DNA of 60,881 bases from Lishizhenia tianjinensis (GTDB lineage: Bacteria; Bacteroidota; Bacteroidia; Flavobacteriales_D; Crocinitomicaceae): contig CAMBBW010000002.1 of NCBI GenBank assembly GCA_945863425.1, forward strand, positions 1-60,881. The letters run 5' to 3'. The position numbers and the translations under genes are program-made. Of this stretch, positions 12,654 through 59,613 are shown in pieces. How positions within the stretch are numbered: position 1 is the stretch's first letter; every line of letters starts with the position of its first letter. Under the pieces are notes generated by a model, which searched no databases, was not told the origin of the DNA, and was given only the letters and a program-made list of their open reading frames with translations.

Positions 12654-13424
12654 TTATTTTTTTTTCTTGGTGAAATCCATATTATAAGTTAAGCCCGTCA
12701 ATAAAGTATGATTTCGTTCTGTTTTTATCCCGTCTGATTTAATTACATATTGGTTCAAGTAGCCTATTTGAATGTTGAAATTACTGTTAAATCTCCATCC
12801 TAGGGCTGCGTTAAACCTATTTTGGTCTATAACATTTTTACCGATTCCCTTCCCAAAACCAATAAATACCTCATTATTTAGATTTAAAAAAAGTGTATTG
12901 TCTTGCATCGTTTTTTTGGTTAAAGGAATAAAAACAAGAGCGCGATACCTAACCCGTTGTCTGAAAATATTGTCGCCTTTGACTAGATCTCCTGAGCTGT
13001 TTTTCAAGTAATTTTCTATGAAACGTTGTTCAAGTCTATAGCGGTGTTGGATATCAATCGTCCGGAATTTACCCTCAATTTTACTTTTCAAGTTCAATTG
13101 TTGCCAGATGCGATTTTCATTGTAGTCTCTTAATACGGGTTGATCACCATAGGGAAAAGTGACAATCCAACCATATCCTGCGGTTACCGTTACATTCGGA
13201 TTTAATGTATAATCAACGCCGATACGCATAAGTGATTGTTTCCAATTTTTAAAACCATCTTCTCTGCGCCATTGATATTCAGTGTGAATGCCGAATTTAT
13301 TGCTTAGTTTATGATTGCCCAAATAACTCACCCAAGCATGTTGTTGGTCTGAAAAAACTTTTTGCGCAAAAGTTACTACTTCAAATTGCAAGAATATAAT
13401 CCAAATTAGGTACTTAAATTTCAT
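12654..13424 (-). CDS. DUF2490 family outer-membrane protein at the end of the DAB operon
   Basis: 256 residues from the ATG at 13424, which is preferred because it begins a clean signal peptide (MKFKYLIWIIFLQF, cleavage near TFAQ). A start at 13487 would overlap the sulP gene and add a polar tail. The chain has repeated amphipathic strands and WRREDGFKNWKQ, RQRVRYRALVFIPL and ALGWRFNSNFNIQIGYLNQYV, as in DUF2490 barrels. It follows sulP by one base, so it is co-transcribed with the bicarbonate-uptake genes. A role as an outer-membrane channel for that system is an inference. Confidence 0.75.
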   Translation of the reverse strand: MKFKYLIWIIFLQFEVVTFAQKVFSDQQHAWVSYLGNHKLSNKFGIHTEYQWRREDGFKNWKQSLMRIGVDYTLNPNVTVTAGYGWIVTFPYGDQPVLRDYNENRIWQQLNLKSKIEGKFRTIDIQHRYRLEQRFIENYLKNSSGDLVKGDNIFRQRVRYRALVFIPLTKKTMQDNTLFLNLNNEVFIGFGKGIGKNVIDQNRFNAALGWRFNSNFNIQIGYLNQYVIKSDGIKTERNHTLLTGLTYNMDFTKKKK

Positions 13425-13425
13425 A

Positions 13426-15039
13426 TCACTTAATTTTTTTCTTTGCTGAAAGTTGATGACTTGAATTACCAATATTCTTGAATTCATCTAGACCTAAGAT
13501 TGTAAAGCTACCACACTCTGTAGCAAAGTCGTTTTTTATGTGATACAAATTTTCTATAACAGAATGATCTACCAGAAAACAACCTGATAAATCCAAAATG
13601 ATATGCTCAGTGAATTCAAAAGAGTGAATCTGTTTTTTAATTTTAGTAAAATTACTAAATATTGCAGCGTTGCGGATAATTATTATGTTTCCATTTACTT
13701 CAGTGTTAGCTTTAAATAAATTGGATGGTTTCACTCCTCTTGCTATATGGATGATTAGTTTTAACAATATTCCTATGCCGATTCCAATTAATAAGTCTGT
13801 GATAAGAATAAATAAAATAGTTGTAATAAATATAGCAATTTGATCCTTGCCAATTTTAGCCATGTGTCCAAATTCTCGAGGATGCGTTAACTTCCAACCA
13901 ACTCCAATTAACATTGCTGCCAATGCAGCTTTAGGTATTAAATTACTGAAAGAAACTGCGAAAATTAAGAAAATCAATATAAATAATCCGTGGTAAAAAT
14001 TTGCCCAACGAGTTTTTGCACCGTTATTTACATTAGCAGAGGAACGAGCCACCTCTGAAATCATTGGTAACCCACCTAAAAAACCTGCAATGACATTACC
14101 TATTCCGACGGCTATAAGATCCTTATTCGTGTTAGATCGTCTTTTATAACTATCTAATTCGTCAATTGCTTTTATTGTAAGCAAAGATTCTAAGCTCCCA
14201 ACTAAGGCAAACATACAGATATATTTAATAAAGGTTCCTAACTCTGCAAACCCGTCGAAGTTCGCATTAACTGCAATTATTTCCGTAAATCCTTTATTGA
14301 ATTCTAGTAATGGTGTAAAATCTTTTGTGTTGTGAATATCAAAGAGAATACCTAGAGGAACTGATACAAGTAATACGATTAATGCGGAGGGAATTTTTCT
14401 AATTGTCTTGTTAGGGATCAGAGGCCACCCAAAAACTATAAGTAGACAAACTAACCCAATTATTACAACATCCTTGTGCATAAAGAAATTTGCCAAGGTG
14501 TTTTTTAATTCTAGTAATAATTCAATCGGTTCAACCATTGGTCTACCTTCTGCTGTTAACGGGTTCAAACCTGCTAATACGTGCAATTGTTTACTGATAA
14601 TAATAATCCCAATAGCAGCAAGCATTCCGTGTACGGCAGACAAAGGGAAGAAATCACTCAAAGATCCAAGTTTTAGTATGCCAAATATTATTTGAAGTAT
14701 GCCTGCGATGACTACCGCACCAAGTGTTAATTGCCATCCTAGTTCATTATTACCATGCCCAAGTTCGGTTACCGAGCCAGCAACAATTACAATAAGTCCA
14801 GCCGCAGGCCCTTTAATTGTCAGTAAAGAACCTGCAAAAAGGCTAATAACTAAACCACCAATCATTGCAGTTACTAACCCAAATATTGGGGGGAAATTAC
14901 TGGCTCCGGCAATACCTAAACTTAATGGTAACGCAAGTAGAAAAACTAAAAATCCTGATAAAGCATCAGCGCTAAAATTTTCTTTGAGTCCTGTAAATCC
15001 ATCTTTTGGAAGAACATTTTTTTTATTTTTTTTATTCAT
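13426..15039 (-). CDS. SulP family anion transporter (probable bicarbonate or sulfate)
   Basis: 537 residues. The membrane domain (about residues 15-430) has the SLC26/SulP signatures: FLVFLLALPLSLGIA near the start, GLVTAMIGGLVISLFAGS, and GGLPMISEVARSSANVNNGAKTRWAN. A C-terminal STAS-like domain (about 435-530, HIILDLSGCFLVDHSVIENL) is present but short. Members carry sulfate, bicarbonate or dicarboxylates. Location downstream of dabAB favours bicarbonate. It is separated from dabB by 28 bases of 8-mer repeats. Confidence 0.87.
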   Translation of the reverse strand: MNKKNKKNVLPKDGFTGLKENFSADALSGFLVFLLALPLSLGIAGASNFPPIFGLVTAMIGGLVISLFAGSLLTIKGPAAGLIVIVAGSVTELGHGNNELGWQLTLGAVVIAGILQIIFGILKLGSLSDFFPLSAVHGMLAAIGIIIISKQLHVLAGLNPLTAEGRPMVEPIELLLELKNTLANFFMHKDVVIIGLVCLLIVFGWPLIPNKTIRKIPSALIVLLVSVPLGILFDIHNTKDFTPLLEFNKGFTEIIAVNANFDGFAELGTFIKYICMFALVGSLESLLTIKAIDELDSYKRRSNTNKDLIAVGIGNVIAGFLGGLPMISEVARSSANVNNGAKTRWANFYHGLFILIFLIFAVSFSNLIPKAALAAMLIGVGWKLTHPREFGHMAKIGKDQIAIFITTILFILITDLLIGIGIGILLKLIIHIARGVKPSNLFKANTEVNGNIIIIRNAAIFSNFTKIKKQIHSFEFTEHIILDLSGCFLVDHSVIENLYHIKNDFATECGSFTILGLDEFKNIGNSSHQLSAKKKIK

Positions 15040-52675: not shown

Positions 52676-53467
52676 CTAATTCATATTCCAAACAGCGAAA
52701 AAATCCATCGAGATTGCAACAGAAAAATGCAAAAGTACGCCTAGCCAAATAGAGTTCGATTTCAAACTCATTGATCCAAGAACAATTCCTGCAAAAATAG
52801 CACCTATCGTTTCCGGTAAAGGTTTGCCAAAATGAATCATGCAATAAGGAATCATCATGATAAAAATGGAATAATATCCGAACCTTTTTTTAAGTGCATG
52901 AACCATAAAACCTCTGAAAAAGAACTCAAGACCAACAAATTGAAGAAAATAAAAGCACTCCCAAATGACTAAATTTTCATACGAAGCATTTGAATAGTTT
53001 AATCGATAAAACGGATAACTATGCTGAAATTGTTCAGTTTGAGAGGCTATCCAAACCAAAGGAAGCATAATTAGGAGAAAAAGTAGGTAAAACCGCATTC
53101 CTTTGGTGAGTCCTTTCAGCGAAAGTCCATAGGAAGAAATTTTCTCTTTCCAACTAAATTTAATCACTAAAACAGGTACGATAAAGTAAAAAAAGAAGGA
53201 GCACATCGCCCAATAATTTAAATCTAATAACTGATAATCATTGACTTTTTGAAGCGATTCTATTGCAATAGATGTCAAGTCGTTTAATCCCAGCGAATGG
53301 AGTAATTGTAGTGTTTTTTGGATCGAGTTGAGGTACTGAATGGCAACGAGCGAAAACACTGAAACAAGTATTGTAACCAGAACTTTTTTATCTAGTTTTT
53401 CTTGGGGGTGAAACTTGAGAAATACATCTCCAAAGATAGTTTGAAGGACTTTTCTTAATCTAAGCAC
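52676..53467 (-). CDS. CPBP family membrane protein (Abi/Rce1-like) with one altered motif
   Basis: 263 residues with about seven membrane segments. Motif 1 reads LEFFFRG: E181 and R185 are present, but the first Glu of the usual EExxxR is Leu180. Motif 2 His (H212, CMIHFGKP) and motif 3 His (H247, GVLLHFSV) are kept. It may be an intact protease, since one Glu is enough in some members, or a partly degenerate copy. The stop codon is 2 bases from the convergent DnaJ gene. It follows the 797-residue unknown gene by 8 bases. Confidence 0.78.
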   Translation of the reverse strand: MLRLRKVLQTIFGDVFLKFHPQEKLDKKVLVTILVSVFSLVAIQYLNSIQKTLQLLHSLGLNDLTSIAIESLQKVNDYQLLDLNYWAMCSFFFYFIVPVLVIKFSWKEKISSYGLSLKGLTKGMRFYLLFLLIMLPLVWIASQTEQFQHSYPFYRLNYSNASYENLVIWECFYFLQFVGLEFFFRGFMVHALKKRFGYYSIFIMMIPYCMIHFGKPLPETIGAIFAGIVLGSMSLKSNSIWLGVLLHFSVAISMDFFAVWNMN

Positions 53468-53475
53468 GCTTTAAA

Positions 53476-55869
53476 TTAATTTAAGTAGTAATTAAAATAA
53501 CTGCATTCTGAAACTATATCTTGGTAGAATTGCGTGTTAAAATAGGTGTTTTTTAACACGGCAAAGTTTTTTTGAAATCCTTGTTGCTTAATGTCAAATA
53601 GGAATTTATAAAAATTCAAGTTGTCTTCGTAATTATCTCGAATTTCCCCATAATTCTGCGTGAATAAATTCAATTCGCAACGCGCTGCCATAAAATGAGC
53701 TTTCGCTTCCAATTCTCTGTTCCCTAATCCAATTGTTAACGCTTTATTCAAGAAGTTCATGGATATGGAATTATCAGTAAATCCATTTGGTTTTGTTGTA
53801 CAACGATAATACGCAAGAAATTTCCATGAATCACTGTAATAAGATAAATTGTAATAGGCTAATCCTAAGTAGTAATAATCTATCGCAGAGTTTGTTGCTT
53901 TCGCTTTCTCGTAATGAATTTGAAGTTTTTTGGCTAGGGTTAGTTTGTCCAATGCATTTTCATAATTTATTTCTTCTGGCGTTTTAAGTATTATTGGTTT
54001 TGCCGTCATTGCAAATGGATCGGTGTAACGAGTTGTTGTATTAGAAAAATTTTCAGGTAGTTTTTCAAAAATTTCAATTGCTTCTGCTAATTTTTCAGGT
54101 TTTCGCATGAGCAGCGTTGCTTTAAGTTCATTTAATACATATTTAATATCAGAAAATTTAGAGATATAATAATATACATCAGAATCAAAATTTTTGCCCA
54201 TTCCAAAATAATATCTTGAAGCATACTCCACAAGTTTAGTTTTTTCAGTAGTTTCAAAAGCAGTTAGCAATTCAGCAATATATTCAGGTGAAAGTGCTTT
54301 TTTACCTTGTTCATTTTCATTCCATTCCGGGAAATCTCTATCATATATGTCAGAGTCAATCGTTTGGCCATTGAAAACCAATTCTTTAAAGTCATTTTTA
54401 CCTTTTACCTTCGTATAGATTAATTTAAATAGATATTCGTTAATTGTATTATAATCTTCGCTGCCTTTTCTATAATAGTTTGTTGCATAATATGAAGTAT
54501 TTGACGTTTCATTTGATACAGTAGAAACGGAAGACAGGGTTTCATTGTCGGAGTTTATTTCATATAGCTTATGGCCAATTATATTCTCATCCACAATGCT
54601 CAGTTCTGACTTAGAAGAAACGTAATTAAGGATATCGATAACTGCGTGTTGCCTTTTTAAGCTTTCATCTTTTGGAGTATTTCCATCCAACACAGCTTTA
54701 CAACTTGCGTAATCTTTGTTCAGGAAATGCAAATAACCAAGGCTTAGATACCAGAATTTATTAGAATCGTCTTTTGGAAGCATCAATTTATTAAGTGTTA
54801 TTAATCTATTCATATAGTTCACTGCCTCGTCTTTAGACTTGATTGGATCATCTTCAGAAGAATATTCAAAGCTGTCTCCATTTTGAGGAAGTAGTAAATA
54901 TTCCATTTTATTTATTTCATGACTCATCAAAACACGTGCATATTCATGGTTTCCTCCATTTTTGAAAATAAAATCAATGTCATCAATTGCTAAGTTTTTT
55001 GTTTCTATTCCTCGAATAAAATGCAAGGCAAGCTTTTCATCGTTTGATTGACAAAGGGATTTCGCCTCATTCATTTCTTGTTCTGAATTGATGGAAATGC
55101 TTAAATAAGCACTTTCTCTTCTGCTAGGAGAATTAACATAGACTTTAGAAAAATAATAATTGGCCTCTGCTTTTCTACCCATACTTGCTAGAGCACCTGC
55201 ATAATGATCCATAGCCCAATACCCAATAAAAGAATTCGTTGCTGCAAAATTTCTTTCAAAAGCGTTTAATACTTCCTGGTAATTTTCTTCGTACCGATGC
55301 AACTTAATGAGTTGAAAAGCCAAACGTTCTTTAATGATTTGATGCTGTGCTACTTGCAACATCTGGTTAGCTTTTGCTACTAATCGATTATATTCTTCTG
55401 GATTTTTAGTTTTTTCTTTCTCCTCGTACGACCAAGGATCGGGAGCATAAGCCTTTAAATGCTTTTCGATCTGAAGAGATAATTCCAAGTAATTGATGAA
55501 AACAGTTTCTTTCTGTGAAATCTCTTTGTCTGAGACACGTCCCTGTTTTAGATTACTCATTTCTTGGGCGTGGTTTGTAAAGCCTCCTTCGCGATAGATA
55601 AATGGGATCAAATCTTTTGCTATATATTTATTTTCTAGGAAATTTGCCCATTCAGTAGTATTTTGTAATTGAATTGGATAAGTTCCATACAAGGATGAGT
55701 TGTAGTTCCATAGATTAAAACTGGTTAATGACTTTCCACTTGAAAAAACTAGGTCTCTATCAAAAAGCATGTGGTAATACATGTAATAACCGCCACAGTT
55801 TTGACCGTGTTTTGGAACTGTAATATTAATGAATGTAAGAAGTAAGGTTAGAAAAGAAATTTTTTTCAT
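53476..55869 (-). CDS. Large exported protein of unknown function (repeat-rich helical)
   Basis: 797 residues. The ATG at 55869 gives a signal peptide of about 20 residues (MKKISFLTLLLTFINITVPK) and is preferred although it overlaps the upstream gene by 44 bases. The mature N-terminus is GQNCGGYYMYYHMLFD. The rest is helical with TPR-like pairs (AMDHYAGALASMGRKAEANYYFSKVYVNSP, ALDKLTLAKKLQIHYEKAKA, YYLGLAYYNLSYYSDSW, each in part), which suggests a repeat scaffold. No enzymatic motif and no T9SS signal were seen. It is probably coupled to the TIM-barrel-like lipoprotein gene and the downstream CPBP gene. Confidence 0.7.
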   Translation of the reverse strand: MKKISFLTLLLTFINITVPKHGQNCGGYYMYYHMLFDRDLVFSSGKSLTSFNLWNYNSSLYGTYPIQLQNTTEWANFLENKYIAKDLIPFIYREGGFTNHAQEMSNLKQGRVSDKEISQKETVFINYLELSLQIEKHLKAYAPDPWSYEEKEKTKNPEEYNRLVAKANQMLQVAQHQIIKERLAFQLIKLHRYEENYQEVLNAFERNFAATNSFIGYWAMDHYAGALASMGRKAEANYYFSKVYVNSPSRRESAYLSISINSEQEMNEAKSLCQSNDEKLALHFIRGIETKNLAIDDIDFIFKNGGNHEYARVLMSHEINKMEYLLLPQNGDSFEYSSEDDPIKSKDEAVNYMNRLITLNKLMLPKDDSNKFWYLSLGYLHFLNKDYASCKAVLDGNTPKDESLKRQHAVIDILNYVSSKSELSIVDENIIGHKLYEINSDNETLSSVSTVSNETSNTSYYATNYYRKGSEDYNTINEYLFKLIYTKVKGKNDFKELVFNGQTIDSDIYDRDFPEWNENEQGKKALSPEYIAELLTAFETTEKTKLVEYASRYYFGMGKNFDSDVYYYISKFSDIKYVLNELKATLLMRKPEKLAEAIEIFEKLPENFSNTTTRYTDPFAMTAKPIILKTPEEINYENALDKLTLAKKLQIHYEKAKATNSAIDYYYLGLAYYNLSYYSDSWKFLAYYRCTTKPNGFTDNSISMNFLNKALTIGLGNRELEAKAHFMAARCELNLFTQNYGEIRDNYEDNLNFYKFLFDIKQQGFQKNFAVLKNTYFNTQFYQDIVSECSYFNYYLN

Positions 55870-56824
55870 AATTTGAAATTGAATTGGAACTTATGTGATA
55901 AAATATAATGTCATTGAAATGGTGATTGGATTTTTCCAGTATCTCTGCACATTTTAATAGAGTAGAGGGGTCTGATTCTTCAATGCGTAAAATATCATTC
56001 TTGCAAAAATAGGTGTTGTCGTAATAAAAATTTGAATCTGCTCGAAACTTATTTTCACTTAATTTAGTGAACGCGAATGATTTCAATTGATTGCGGTCAA
56101 TGTCATTCACAATCAGTGTTAGTTTTCCCAAACGATAAATTAATCCCCAATGATAGGAGGGAAGCGCTAGATCTAATGGAAGCGGATATGGATCGATTTC
56201 AAAGATATATTTCTTTAATTCAGCTTCTGAAATAATCGAATTATCTGTTTTTTGATTGTCAATTTTGCCCATATTATAGCACATTAACACGGCTTTTTCA
56301 ACGGGAGGAACGCCGGTTTTTTTGGGGTATTTGAATTGATGTAAGCGCAGTGTGGAGGTGATAATTTGTTTGTTTTGAGAGATTTTTTTGAGTTGTGTTA
56401 AGAAAGAAAAATACGCTTTTTGGGTGGCATCTGTCCAATCGCAATCAATTTGAATCTCATTCAATTGTAATTTATTGGATTCGGCAATTTTACCTACAAG
56501 GCCATAAACTTTTAAAGCAATATCAGCAGAGTTATTTTGTTTAAACACTTGATTTTCAATAAATATACAAGGGATTATATTAAATTTTCCTACAGGTATT
56601 TTAAAATCTATTTTTGAAATAGGTTTCGCTTTATTTTCTCTTGAGTCCCACGTAACATCAAAAAATTTTACATATAGTTTTTTAACTTGATTGAATTCAA
56701 GAATAGCCTTTTGCGATTGATTTAAATTGAAATCTTGTTTCCAATAGTAAAAAGAAATTTCATGTTTTGAATTATTGGTACAACCAACTAAGAGAAGCGT
56801 AAAAAATAGAGCCATTCGTACCAT
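55826..56824 (-). CDS. Lipoprotein with a possible glycosidase-like TIM barrel, unknown function
   Basis: 332 residues. Lipobox LLLVGC (C15), then a chain of alternating short beta strands and helices that resembles an 8-stranded barrel: ISFYYWKQ, KKLYVKFFDVTW, FNIIPCIFIENQVF, NEIQIDCDWTDATQ, QIITSTLRLHQF, KAVLMCYNMGKID, DLALPSYHWGLIYRL. The DCDWT acids after strand 4 lie where GH18-like enzymes have catalytic acids. The family is not recognised by name. It overlaps the 797-residue gene by 44 bases, so the two proteins likely act together. Confidence 0.62.
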   Translation of the reverse strand: MVRMALFFTLLLVGCTNNSKHEISFYYWKQDFNLNQSQKAILEFNQVKKLYVKFFDVTWDSRENKAKPISKIDFKIPVGKFNIIPCIFIENQVFKQNNSADIALKVYGLVGKIAESNKLQLNEIQIDCDWTDATQKAYFSFLTQLKKISQNKQIITSTLRLHQFKYPKKTGVPPVEKAVLMCYNMGKIDNQKTDNSIISEAELKKYIFEIDPYPLPLDLALPSYHWGLIYRLGKLTLIVNDIDRNQLKSFAFTKLSENKFRADSNFYYDNTYFCKNDILRIEESDPSTLLKCAEILEKSNHHFNDIIFYHISSNSISNYEKNFFSNLTSYIH

Positions 56825-56913: not shown

Positions 56914-58128
56914 CTAGAGCATATTGGTCAATTTCAACCATTCGTTTGCCGAAACTACTCGTATCTGTTTATCTCCCTGATCAAATGTGTCTGTTTGATT
57001 CATCGTTACAATTGTACCTTCCTTTAAATCAAAAAAATCCATAGCTTCTTTTAGGCCATTTAACTCGCGCTTAAGATTGTCTGTATTTAGTTCATAACAA
57101 GCTTGAACAACTTGAGTCACTTTTTCTTTCTCCTTCACTACAAAATCACATTCTCCCTTTTCACGGAAGTAATATAAGTTGTTGAATTTTTGCCGCAGTG
57201 AAAGGTATATCATGTTTTCGAACAATCTTCCTGCATCTGAGCTAAAACTAGTAGAATTGGCTCTGGCAAATCCGGTATCGATGCTGTATATTTTTTTTTG
57301 GTTAACTGCTACCGACTTTAGCGACCAGCTAAAACGGGGCAAGGTAAAAAAAAGATAGCTATCCTCCAGCCAAGAAACATAATCCGAAACTGAATTCGCG
57401 GAGCCCAGTTCAAAGATTTTTTTCAACCCATTCAATGAATAAGGCTTGGCAATGTTTGAGATTAAATAGAGTGTGATTTCTTCCACCACTTTTCCGTTTC
57501 GAATGCCGTGCCGCGCGATGATGTCTCGATAAAGTATGTCCCGCAGCAGTTGATGCAAATAGGATTTTTCGCCTGTTTTAATAAATAGCGGTATCCCTCC
57601 ATTATTCATGTATTTTGAAGCACTTTCTGAATTATTTTCCCATGAATGGAACCTGCAATATTCGAGGTAATTAAAAGGGAAAAGTTCCTTCGTTATATTT
57701 CGGCCGGTTAGTCTTGTTCCCAATTCTTTGCTCAAAAGCGAGGCGTTAGATCCAGTAATACAAATTGTTTTTCCTTGATCGTGTAATTTTCGAATAAATA
57801 GTTCCCATTGCGGAACATTTTGTATTTCATCAAAAAAATAATAGCTTTTCTCTCCCAAAACTTCTTCCAGCTTGGTGAAATCATCCACAGTAAAACCAAA
57901 TATACGAGGATCCTCAAAATGAAAATAGGCAAAATCCGAATCCAATTGGTGTATGAGCTGGTGCATCAAGGTGCTTTTACCCGATCGGCGGATTCCTGTG
58001 ATGATAGTAATAAATTCTTTTCGCAAGGATATTTTTTCCAAGGCGTATCGATTAACCCCAAGATCGGTTTGCATTAATTGCTTGCGCTGATCGGCCACAC
58101 ACGCTTCTATTATTGACTTTAGTACCAT
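56914..58128 (-). CDS. DUF4143 AAA-type ATPase with a nuclease-like C-terminus
   Basis: 404 residues. Walker A TGIRRSGKST at 44-53, Walker B YYFFDEIQNVPQWE near 100, and Sensor-like TGSNASLLSKELGTRLTGR near 128. The second half has the DUF4143 signatures KIYSIDTGFARANS and GRLFENMIYLSLRQ, then EKGECDFVVKEKEK, a PD-(D/E)XK-like core without clear catalytic completeness. Such ATPases are frequent, often horizontally moved and of unknown role. The promoter region carries tandem palindromes. Confidence 0.88.
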   Translation of the reverse strand: MVLKSIIEACVADQRKQLMQTDLGVNRYALEKISLRKEFITIITGIRRSGKSTLMHQLIHQLDSDFAYFHFEDPRIFGFTVDDFTKLEEVLGEKSYYFFDEIQNVPQWELFIRKLHDQGKTICITGSNASLLSKELGTRLTGRNITKELFPFNYLEYCRFHSWENNSESASKYMNNGGIPLFIKTGEKSYLHQLLRDILYRDIIARHGIRNGKVVEEITLYLISNIAKPYSLNGLKKIFELGSANSVSDYVSWLEDSYLFFTLPRFSWSLKSVAVNQKKIYSIDTGFARANSTSFSSDAGRLFENMIYLSLRQKFNNLYYFREKGECDFVVKEKEKVTQVVQACYELNTDNLKRELNGLKEAMDFFDLKEGTIVTMNQTDTFDQGDKQIRVVSANEWLKLTNML

Positions 58129-58314: not shown

Positions 58315-59613
58315 TTATTTAATGGCAATATTTTTAATAGATTGATTACCAATAATAACAGTATAAATGCCACTTTCAATTCCGCTAATCGGGATTTGAT
58401 GCTTCATCTTTTCTAGAGCGCCAATTCTTATCGTCTTACCTAATTGATCCACAATTTTATAGCATTCCCCTATGCGTTCAGGCTCAACAGCAATTGTCAA
58501 CATTTCCTCTGCAGGGTTAGGATAAAGCAATACCTGATTTTCTTTCATTTCTTGATTGATACCAAGTGCTGGGCAATTCGGTTCAATTCCAACTGATTCC
58601 TGGAAAACCCCATTAGAAACGCTCCAATTATACCAATTACCCGTAGAATTTGTTTCCCACAGATTAAGATTGAATATACTTGAACCAGCGGCATCACCCT
58701 TTACTTGAAATGCTTTAACTGCTTGACCATTTAGGTCCCATGTTAATGGATTTCCTGGGGTGCAAGATTCTGGTGCAGGATTGGGTGCTTCACAATTCAA
58801 CTGAACGAAATAGGCGTTGTCATCATAAGTAGGGTGACCACCAAATACACGCGCTTGTCCAACGGTATCAATGCAAACGGCTGTATATTCATCACAAGCG
58901 ATGGCATATCCTGAGATTCCGAAATCTGTGTAGATTCTTGCTAAAAATGAAACTAAACGTCCTTTTCGATCTGGGCTATCGAAATGTGTATCTGTTATAA
59001 CATTTTGCAATATAGTATTTTGAATAAATGATGTTGAATCAACAGTCATGGTACTGGCAAATGGATTTGTTGTTGCTGTATTAGAGGTTACCGTGCCATT
59101 TTCTGCTGAAAAATAATACTTGCCTTGTATAGCCATCCCTGCACTTGTGCCGCCTATCACTACATTTCTTTGTTGAATTGCTAGATTGATGGCATCGCTA
59201 ACAGGACTATTTCTCCAATAACTAATATACGTCCATTGATTACCACCCGCAAACCAAATCGCTTCAGCTTGATTGATTTTATTTAGGACATACGCATCCG
59301 AACTTGCATTAATATTGTTACATACGATTGTTTCAACAGAGTTTACATTGATGCCCAAGGTAGCATACAAATAATCATTATATCCATCAGAACCTGTCGC
59401 TCTCAATACCAATACATCTCCTCCATTAGCGCGTTCTAAAAACCATTTCATGGCATTATCATCTTCGCTAGCGCCACCCATTAGGCAAATCCCACCGGTA
59501 GGGTTTGTTACTAAATCCGTTGAGTTTCCGGTGAGATAGGAGGTGTAGTTTTGACCGAATGAAAGGACTGAAACGAAAAAAAACACGAGGGATAATTGCT
59601 TATTAAATGCCAT
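58315..59613 (-). CDS. Secreted S51 (cyanophycinase-like) peptidase with T9SS sorting domain
   Basis: 432 residues. Signal peptide 1-20 (ending LSFG). The S51 fold is marked by GGICLMGGASEDDNA near 40, FAGGNQ at 121-126 and the nucleophile elbow GGTSAG with S157, followed by a His in TDTHFDSPDRKGRLV near 208. Cyanophycinase and related dipeptidases cleave after Asp/Arg-type links. The last ~75 residues are a type A T9SS domain (LLYPNPAEEML, VDQLGKTI, GIESGIYTVII). A cyanophycinase-like enzyme exported by T9SS could degrade extracellular cyanophycin or peptides. The substrate is an inference. Confidence 0.88.
   Translation of the reverse strand: MAFNKQLSLVFFFVSVLSFGQNYTSYLTGNSTDLVTNPTGGICLMGGASEDDNAMKWFLERANGGDVLVLRATGSDGYNDYLYATLGINVNSVETIVCNNINASSDAYVLNKINQAEAIWFAGGNQWTYISYWRNSPVSDAINLAIQQRNVVIGGTSAGMAIQGKYYFSAENGTVTSNTATTNPFASTMTVDSTSFIQNTILQNVITDTHFDSPDRKGRLVSFLARIYTDFGISGYAIACDEYTAVCIDTVGQARVFGGHPTYDDNAYFVQLNCEAPNPAPESCTPGNPLTWDLNGQAVKAFQVKGDAAGSSIFNLNLWETNSTGNWYNWSVSNGVFQESVGIEPNCPALGINQEMKENQVLLYPNPAEEMLTIAVEPERIGECYKIVDQLGKTIRIGALEKMKHQIPISGIESGIYTVIIGNQSIKNIAIK

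Follow-up and report, generated by a model that had tools for sequence, protein, structure and literature searches.

An overlapping gene pair encoding a GH18-fold lipoprotein and a predicted TPR-like partner co-occurs across the Bacteroidota

The minus strand of a 60,881-nucleotide stretch of Lishizhenia tianjinensis DNA (contig CAMBBW010000002.1, positions 1 to 60,881; hereafter the window) carries two overlapping genes, gene A (55826..56824), which encodes a lipoprotein of 332 amino acids, and gene B (53476..55869), which encodes an exported protein of 797 amino acids. The locus raises the question whether both proteins belong to one system and what this system might handle. The original prediction, made from the letters of the window, described a lipoprotein with a glycosidase-like TIM-barrel pattern and a repeat-rich exported partner, found no family name for either and ranked the pair among the best candidates for a new system. 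Coordinates, strand, protein lengths and the overlap of 44 nucleotides (nt) were borne out by the open reading frames, and no Pfam or NCBIfam model exceeded its cut-off for A or B of the window. The overlap (55826..55869) is out of frame and encodes the last residues of A, its final helix, together with the signal peptide of B. The earlier observation is confirmed and was understated, although the pair is better described as an unnamed, phylum-wide module of known protein kinds than as a categorically new system. The host genome assembly comprises 2.56 Mb in 239 contigs and is 85.8% complete.

Conservation of the pair in other genomes was surveyed in a phylum sample of 296 genomes, which included the window's own; relatives of the same genus are not independent. 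The A profile matched 37 genomes, about one in eight, and the B profile gave strong matches in 36; five weaker B matches (expectation value, E, 5e-5 to 8e-4) were taken as noise from tetratricopeptide repeats (TPR). All 36 genomes with a strong B were among the 37 with A, compared with about 4.5 shared genomes expected under independent inheritance (37 x 36 / 296). A strong B without A was never found, and the only genome with A alone, G428, holds a partial A. Three of the A matches crossed in-frame stops (G475, G463 and G358). Eight genomes (G220, G224, G368, G400, G404, G420, G443 and G455) contain a second A, and in all eight a B lies beside every copy of A, the second B of G368 being split into two frames. 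A and B are located on separate contigs in G376; in G354 (L204, L205) A lies less than 50 nt from where its contig stops, and another contig opens with three tandem B genes. Among 200 genomes of the window's family, A was detected in 51 by a single-sequence search, B in 50 by profile, and both in 49. The exceptions were G081 with a weak A (E 2e-5), G097, in which the contig stops 84 nt past A, and G003, in which B lies at contig base 257.

The only search for A outside the phylum was a collection scan, which confirmed 580 places as relatives. Of the best 80 of these 580, 79 carry Bacteroidota names, many of them named Flavobacterium species, and one (L083) is titled Ignavibacteria, a group that GTDB places within the Bacteroidota. 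Plasmid carriage of the pair was ruled out, as 72,556 plasmid records yielded no match for A and none for a Flavobacterium B. A literature search revealed no paper that we recognised as treating the pair, which does not prove that none exists. A and B constitute an obligate module of two genes, which the searches located in Bacteroidota as GTDB delimits that phylum, and this conclusion stands on much firmer ground than any mechanism. The near-constant co-occurrence indicates that the two proteins are probably one functional unit, most likely periplasmic and sugar-handling.

The overlap itself was followed through 162 distinct copies of A with enough downstream DNA, drawn from all loci collected; copies that did not differ in their last 150 residues, matches below 60 bits or ending short of model position 250, and two loci with less than 450 nt downstream were set aside. 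A and B overlapped by at least 20 nt in 146 of the 162 copies and by exactly 41 nt in 88, and the phase was identical in 147 of 150 overlapping pairs. The remaining loci showed an overlap of 1-19 nt (four), a gap (eight) or no B within 300 nt (four; L064, L086, L128 and L207). In L064 (6001-13015), A and B are separated by an ABC-type ATPase, judged from its sequence, and by a 1190-residue protein carrying a peptidase M1 domain. An overlapping B was also present at 73 of the best 80 of 580 places in the collection scan. The claim that such overlaps are unusual held against the background of 31 stretches (30 fetched and the window), in which overlaps of at least 29 nt occurred in 23 of 26 A-B pairs and in 6 of 218 other same-strand neighbours; taking the longest ATG start makes both figures upper bounds. 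All 158 B starts scored were ATG, partly by construction since the start-calling script prefers ATG. A start-codon artefact was nevertheless rejected: an ATG and a signal-peptide-like segment precede B throughout the rows inspected, and gene B of the window likewise opens with ATG and such a segment. These counts, with gaps in some loci, indicate that the overlap was inherited and kept, yet is dispensable. An overlap of about 41 nt retained across a phylum is a natural test case for the persistence of long gene overlaps.

The original prediction had taken the overlap as a sign of translational coupling, and in this respect it was not supported. The RNA around the B start (80 nt) was predicted to be less folded than its flanks, with a mean of -4.9 versus -11.0 kcal/mol (90 junctions, not deduplicated), a difference to which the lower G+C content at the B start contributes. 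The B start is also rich in A and T; of the 90 junctions, 71 carry A at position -3 and 74 at -6. A weakly folded, A/T-rich start would allow independent initiation of B. Coupling through structured RNA, in which ribosomes translating A unfold the B start, was discarded because this start is less structured than its flanks. According to the available part of one study, Bacteroidetes scarcely use Shine-Dalgarno motifs, even for overlapping pairs (PMC6728339). The overlap alone does not demonstrate translational coupling. A programmed frameshift fusion of A and B is unlikely, since B retains its own start and signal peptide.

Gene A encodes a lipoprotein with a textbook lipobox, LVGC, and the glycosidase-like barrel was recovered by structure prediction. 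The AlphaFold model, built with 62 sequences, reached a predicted local distance difference test (pLDDT) of 94.2 and a predicted template modelling score (pTM) of 0.90. Foldseek placed it near 86 PDB chains at E<=0.001, the best 50 rows being GH18-type enzymes throughout. VIA-align superposed it on chitinase 5jh8 with Z 18.5 and a root-mean-square deviation (rmsd) of 4.0 over 272 residues, and on the pseudo-chitinase YKL-39 with Z 16.8. In the model, A adopts the (beta/alpha)8 chitinase-type barrel of GH18, which spans nearly the whole protein (residues 19-332). Since the families co-occur and the barrel model did not fail, the pair withstood both points that the original prediction had named as decisive against it.

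At the sequence level, hhalign compared A with 19 GH18 proteins of class-level relatives (E 0.0023, probability 12.8%) and with eight of these proteins (E 0.0037, probability 9.0%). In both comparisons the strand-4 acidic motif, the strand-6 MxYN and the strand-7 LPxY of A fell on GH18 motifs in collinear order. Pfam GH18 (PF00704) did not match A of the window and reached E<=0.1 in 2 of 62 members (best 0.0027). The best Pfam score of the window's A was obtained with DUF3142 (PF11340), at 11.7 bits far below the cut-off of 30; this profile showed a weak likeness to 7 of 62 members at E<=0.1 (best E 4.9e-4) and matched 0 of 148 phylum genomes in a search whose positive controls were likewise unmatched. 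Sequence searches against solved structures were unproductive. A has the fold of GH18 but not its signature. All 62 members agree in fifteen invariant columns: P85, Q125, D127-C128-D129-W130, Y138, T158, R160, L180-M181, Y183-N184, Y213 and P222. The invariance of the pocket residues suggests that the pocket is in use; a lectin and a divergent enzyme are alike conceivable. A resembles the GH18 chi-lectins (YKL-39, SPC-40 and plant TCLL) in fold and in the order of the strand 4, 6 and 7 motifs, and like these proteins with their altered signature it has no canonical acid. It differs from them in its membrane tether, its obligate TPR partner and its own invariant Q-x-D-C-D-W and MxYN motifs, and its identity to the GH18 superfamily was 6-16% in the fold-search rows listed, below Pfam recognition.

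Gene B encodes a protein that was modelled as helical almost throughout (pLDDT 81.7, pTM 0.75). The original prediction of a repeat-rich exported protein was correct in so far as a signal-peptide-like segment is present; the repeats are confined to those of a TPR-like helical solenoid. In the model, B shows the helical hairpins of TPR solenoids, and its nearest solved chains were TPR proteins, mostly at high rmsd, with a top Z of 13.9 (Ctr9). SprE of type IX secretion, an envelope TPR solenoid as is LbcA, aligned with Z 10.8 at rmsd 16.6. B of the window stayed below the Pfam TPR cut-offs (ANAPC3, 15.7 bits versus 27.2; TPR_6, 12.7 versus 26.3), and other members gave weak Pfam TPR matches with a best E of 6.7e-4. 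All 40 members compared share two cysteines, C25 and C789. B was rejected as a lipoprotein, since 80 of 84 B sequences have no lipobox, and for the same reason C25 is more likely to be part of a disulfide than lipidated. The pair thus unites a chitinase-type barrel without the standard catalytic residue and a dedicated TPR partner, both below all Pfam and NCBIfam cut-offs.

We tentatively favour, at something short of an even chance for the reading as a whole, a periplasmic module in which the barrel A binds or cleaves a glycan and B serves as its TPR scaffold. A would be tethered to the membrane by its lipid anchor and face the periplasm; in a few lineages a transmembrane segment, or fusion behind a polytopic membrane protein as its C-terminal domain, may take the place of the lipid. 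Its GH18-fold pocket would recognise a glycan of the N-acetylglucosamine type, possibly cleaving it by a non-canonical route; peptidoglycan and a lipid-linked or exported polymer are candidates. B would be exported to the compartment of A, with a disulfide between C25 and C789 probably linking its two ends, and may bind A, thread or present the glycan, or recruit a partner. This proposed working is comparable to that of the PgaA TPR domain and PgaB in the export of poly-N-acetylglucosamine (PNAG), where a periplasmic sugar-handling barrel, the glycoside hydrolase part of PgaB, meets a TPR scaffold. The PgaA TPR domain binds both PgaB and PNAG, as stated in the available part of PMC9384988. The comparison would be one of working and implies neither membership nor homology: the Pga system includes a synthase, a deacetylase and an outer-membrane porin domain, none of which is recurrently linked to A and B, and no linked synthase or outer-membrane export barrel recurred among 55 diverse A-B loci and the window, where not all neighbours were named. 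PgaA and PgaB chains were not among the fold-search matches listed for A or B, which excludes nothing. If periplasmic glycan handling were true, the pair would represent a two-protein route without recurrently linked synthase or utilisation genes.

Several observations weigh against this reading. The GH18 signature DxxDxDxE lacks its catalytic Glu in all 62 members of A in either register, and the sequence likeness of A to GH18 is marginal. The structural matches of B appear to reflect a generic TPR resemblance and no more. Contact between A and B and any ligand are conjectural, and adjacency of the genes is not strictly needed, since G376 has them on different contigs. A was absent from 259 of the 296 genomes, which implies that the function of the module is accessory. 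No exopolysaccharide synthase or porin recurred beside the pair across lineages, unlinked synthases not being part of that search.

Alternatively, A might be an active, divergent glycosidase with the invariant Asp129 as catalytic acid and B as a modulator of its activity, which we regard as unlikely. This explanation draws on the invariance of D127, C128, D129, W130, R160, Y183 and N184 in 62 of 62 members; residue 131, the competing position, is variable (T46 S10 M5 N1). The register, however, was ambiguous. Of 40 resampled profile alignments, 15 placed D129 on the catalytic Glu, as did the 19-protein comparison and the weak alignment of the A profile to SleL; the other 25, including the most probable of 12 inspected, and the eight-protein comparison placed T131 there. 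Chitinase-like GH18 proteins with altered active sites have no chitinase activity and some bind sugars, according to the accessible part of PMC3662789, which likewise speaks against an active enzyme.

A peptidoglycan-binding A, with B as the TPR adaptor that brings a wall hydrolase or protease into place in the manner of LbcA for CtpA, is a similarly improbable alternative. NlpI for Prc is a further example of such an adaptor. In its favour, the spore-cortex enzyme SleL (4s3j) was the top Foldseek match of A (E 4e-11); of three chains that the A profile reached by sequence, it alone was a GH18 enzyme (E 0.19), and a chain of the CtpA-LbcA complex matched B in Foldseek with E 0.014. All of these matches either concern the fold or fall short of significance; neither a protease nor a hydrolase gene accompanies the pair across lineages, and the patchy distribution speaks against a core wall function. 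The likeness of B to LbcA, as to SprE, is generic, and B differs from the TPR adaptor lipoproteins in its missing lipobox. More specific, and rather improbable for that matter, would be a periplasmic GH18-fold enzyme with a new active site (Q-x-D-C-D-W, R160 and Y-N, Asp129 being the acid) that cannot work without a dedicated TPR guide and is locked to it by the overlap of about 41 nt kept across the phylum.

The original prediction had placed the pair at the cell surface, with A binding or cutting a glycan on the outer face and B as extracellular scaffold. The GH18 fold of A would suit such a complex, and many surface lipoproteins of Bacteroidota handle glycans; the anchors of A and the neighbours of the pair render it improbable, more so than the preceding explanations. 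In an anchor survey of distinct A sequences, from which 35 rows without the YYW motif were excluded, 130 with the domain-start motif had a Cys after the hydrophobic segment under a loose rule that accepted a Cys anywhere past it. Three (L007, L012 and L109) had a hydrophobic segment and no Cys, as expected of an uncleaved anchor, and in L185, L276 and L277 a far longer reading frame ended in A. L273 (a borderline lipoprotein) and the truncated L181 were left unclassed. A gene fusion in three genomes of one genus (L211:9928-12549, L276 and L277) joins A to the C-terminus of an unannotated polytopic membrane protein; the fused frames measure 885, 859 and 841 codons. The membrane part has seven hydrophobic segments in a simple scan and may resemble a GT-C glycosyltransferase, a likeness supported by no tool. 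In 29 other genomes among 61 searched its relatives occupy separate frames that cannot accommodate A (485-607 codons among those listed); such frames occur in other members of the family and have no significant Pfam match.

The lipoprotein export signal (LES) of Bacteroidota, K-(D/E)2 or S-D-D-type after the lipidated Cys, is defined in the available part of PMC5080379. The lipobox pattern failed in 19 of 105 A, some through start choice. Among 86 lipobox-bearing A, a few of whose tails were taken from the wrong Cys, K(D/E)2 was present in two and S(D/E)2 in none, and A of the window had neither. Of 45 A tails, 11% had at least two acidic residues at +2..+6, whereas other lipoproteins of the same loci reached 36% (42 tails), and for LES-like strings the shares were 4% and 14%; these differences are modest and the LES rules are known from few species, which tells against too firm a periplasmic placement. 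The rare LES, the anchors without Cys and the polytopic fusion together favour the periplasm over the surface. Furthermore, no type IX secretion sorting tail was matched in B of the window or in 40 B members, and no neighbour family recurred across lineages. Two unrelated exported proteins in a compact operon, their overlap a frozen accident, would agree with the dispensable overlap (eight gaps and four short overlaps in 162) and the possible independent initiation of B, yet are very improbable given the near-perfect co-occurrence, which includes the separate-contig genome and the eight with paralogous copies, and given that the pair is kept while neighbourhoods differ between lineages.

Across 55 diverse loci and the window, with some neighbours left unnamed, A and B were the only families to recur in more than six loci. 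In a Flavobacterium-rich set some neighbours recurred in up to 48 of 81 loci, which was read as genus synteny. CPBP, DnaJ, AAA_14 and other neighbours were rejected as members of the system, as they did not recur across lineages. The original prediction had noted a CPBP gene on the same strand; this gene (52676-53467, minus strand) lies 8 nt downstream of B, and its membership in the unit was not upheld, as a CPBP-like gene followed the pair only in the closest relative, L051, of 21 loci listed (judged by eye). The CPBP protease matched the archaeomyxosortase MrtA model with E 1.9e-23 and 83.7 bits against a cut-off of 200, and is a possible candidate for a sorting protease. Upstream of the pair lies an AAA_14/DUF4143 ATPase (56914-58128), which did not adjoin the pair in any other locus listed. 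A cyanophycinase/peptidase S51-like protein with a type IX secretion sorting tail is encoded at 58315-59613. A second same-strand pair in the window (12654-13487 and 13426-15039) overlaps by 62 nt with the longest ATG starts, maybe as an artefact of start choice.

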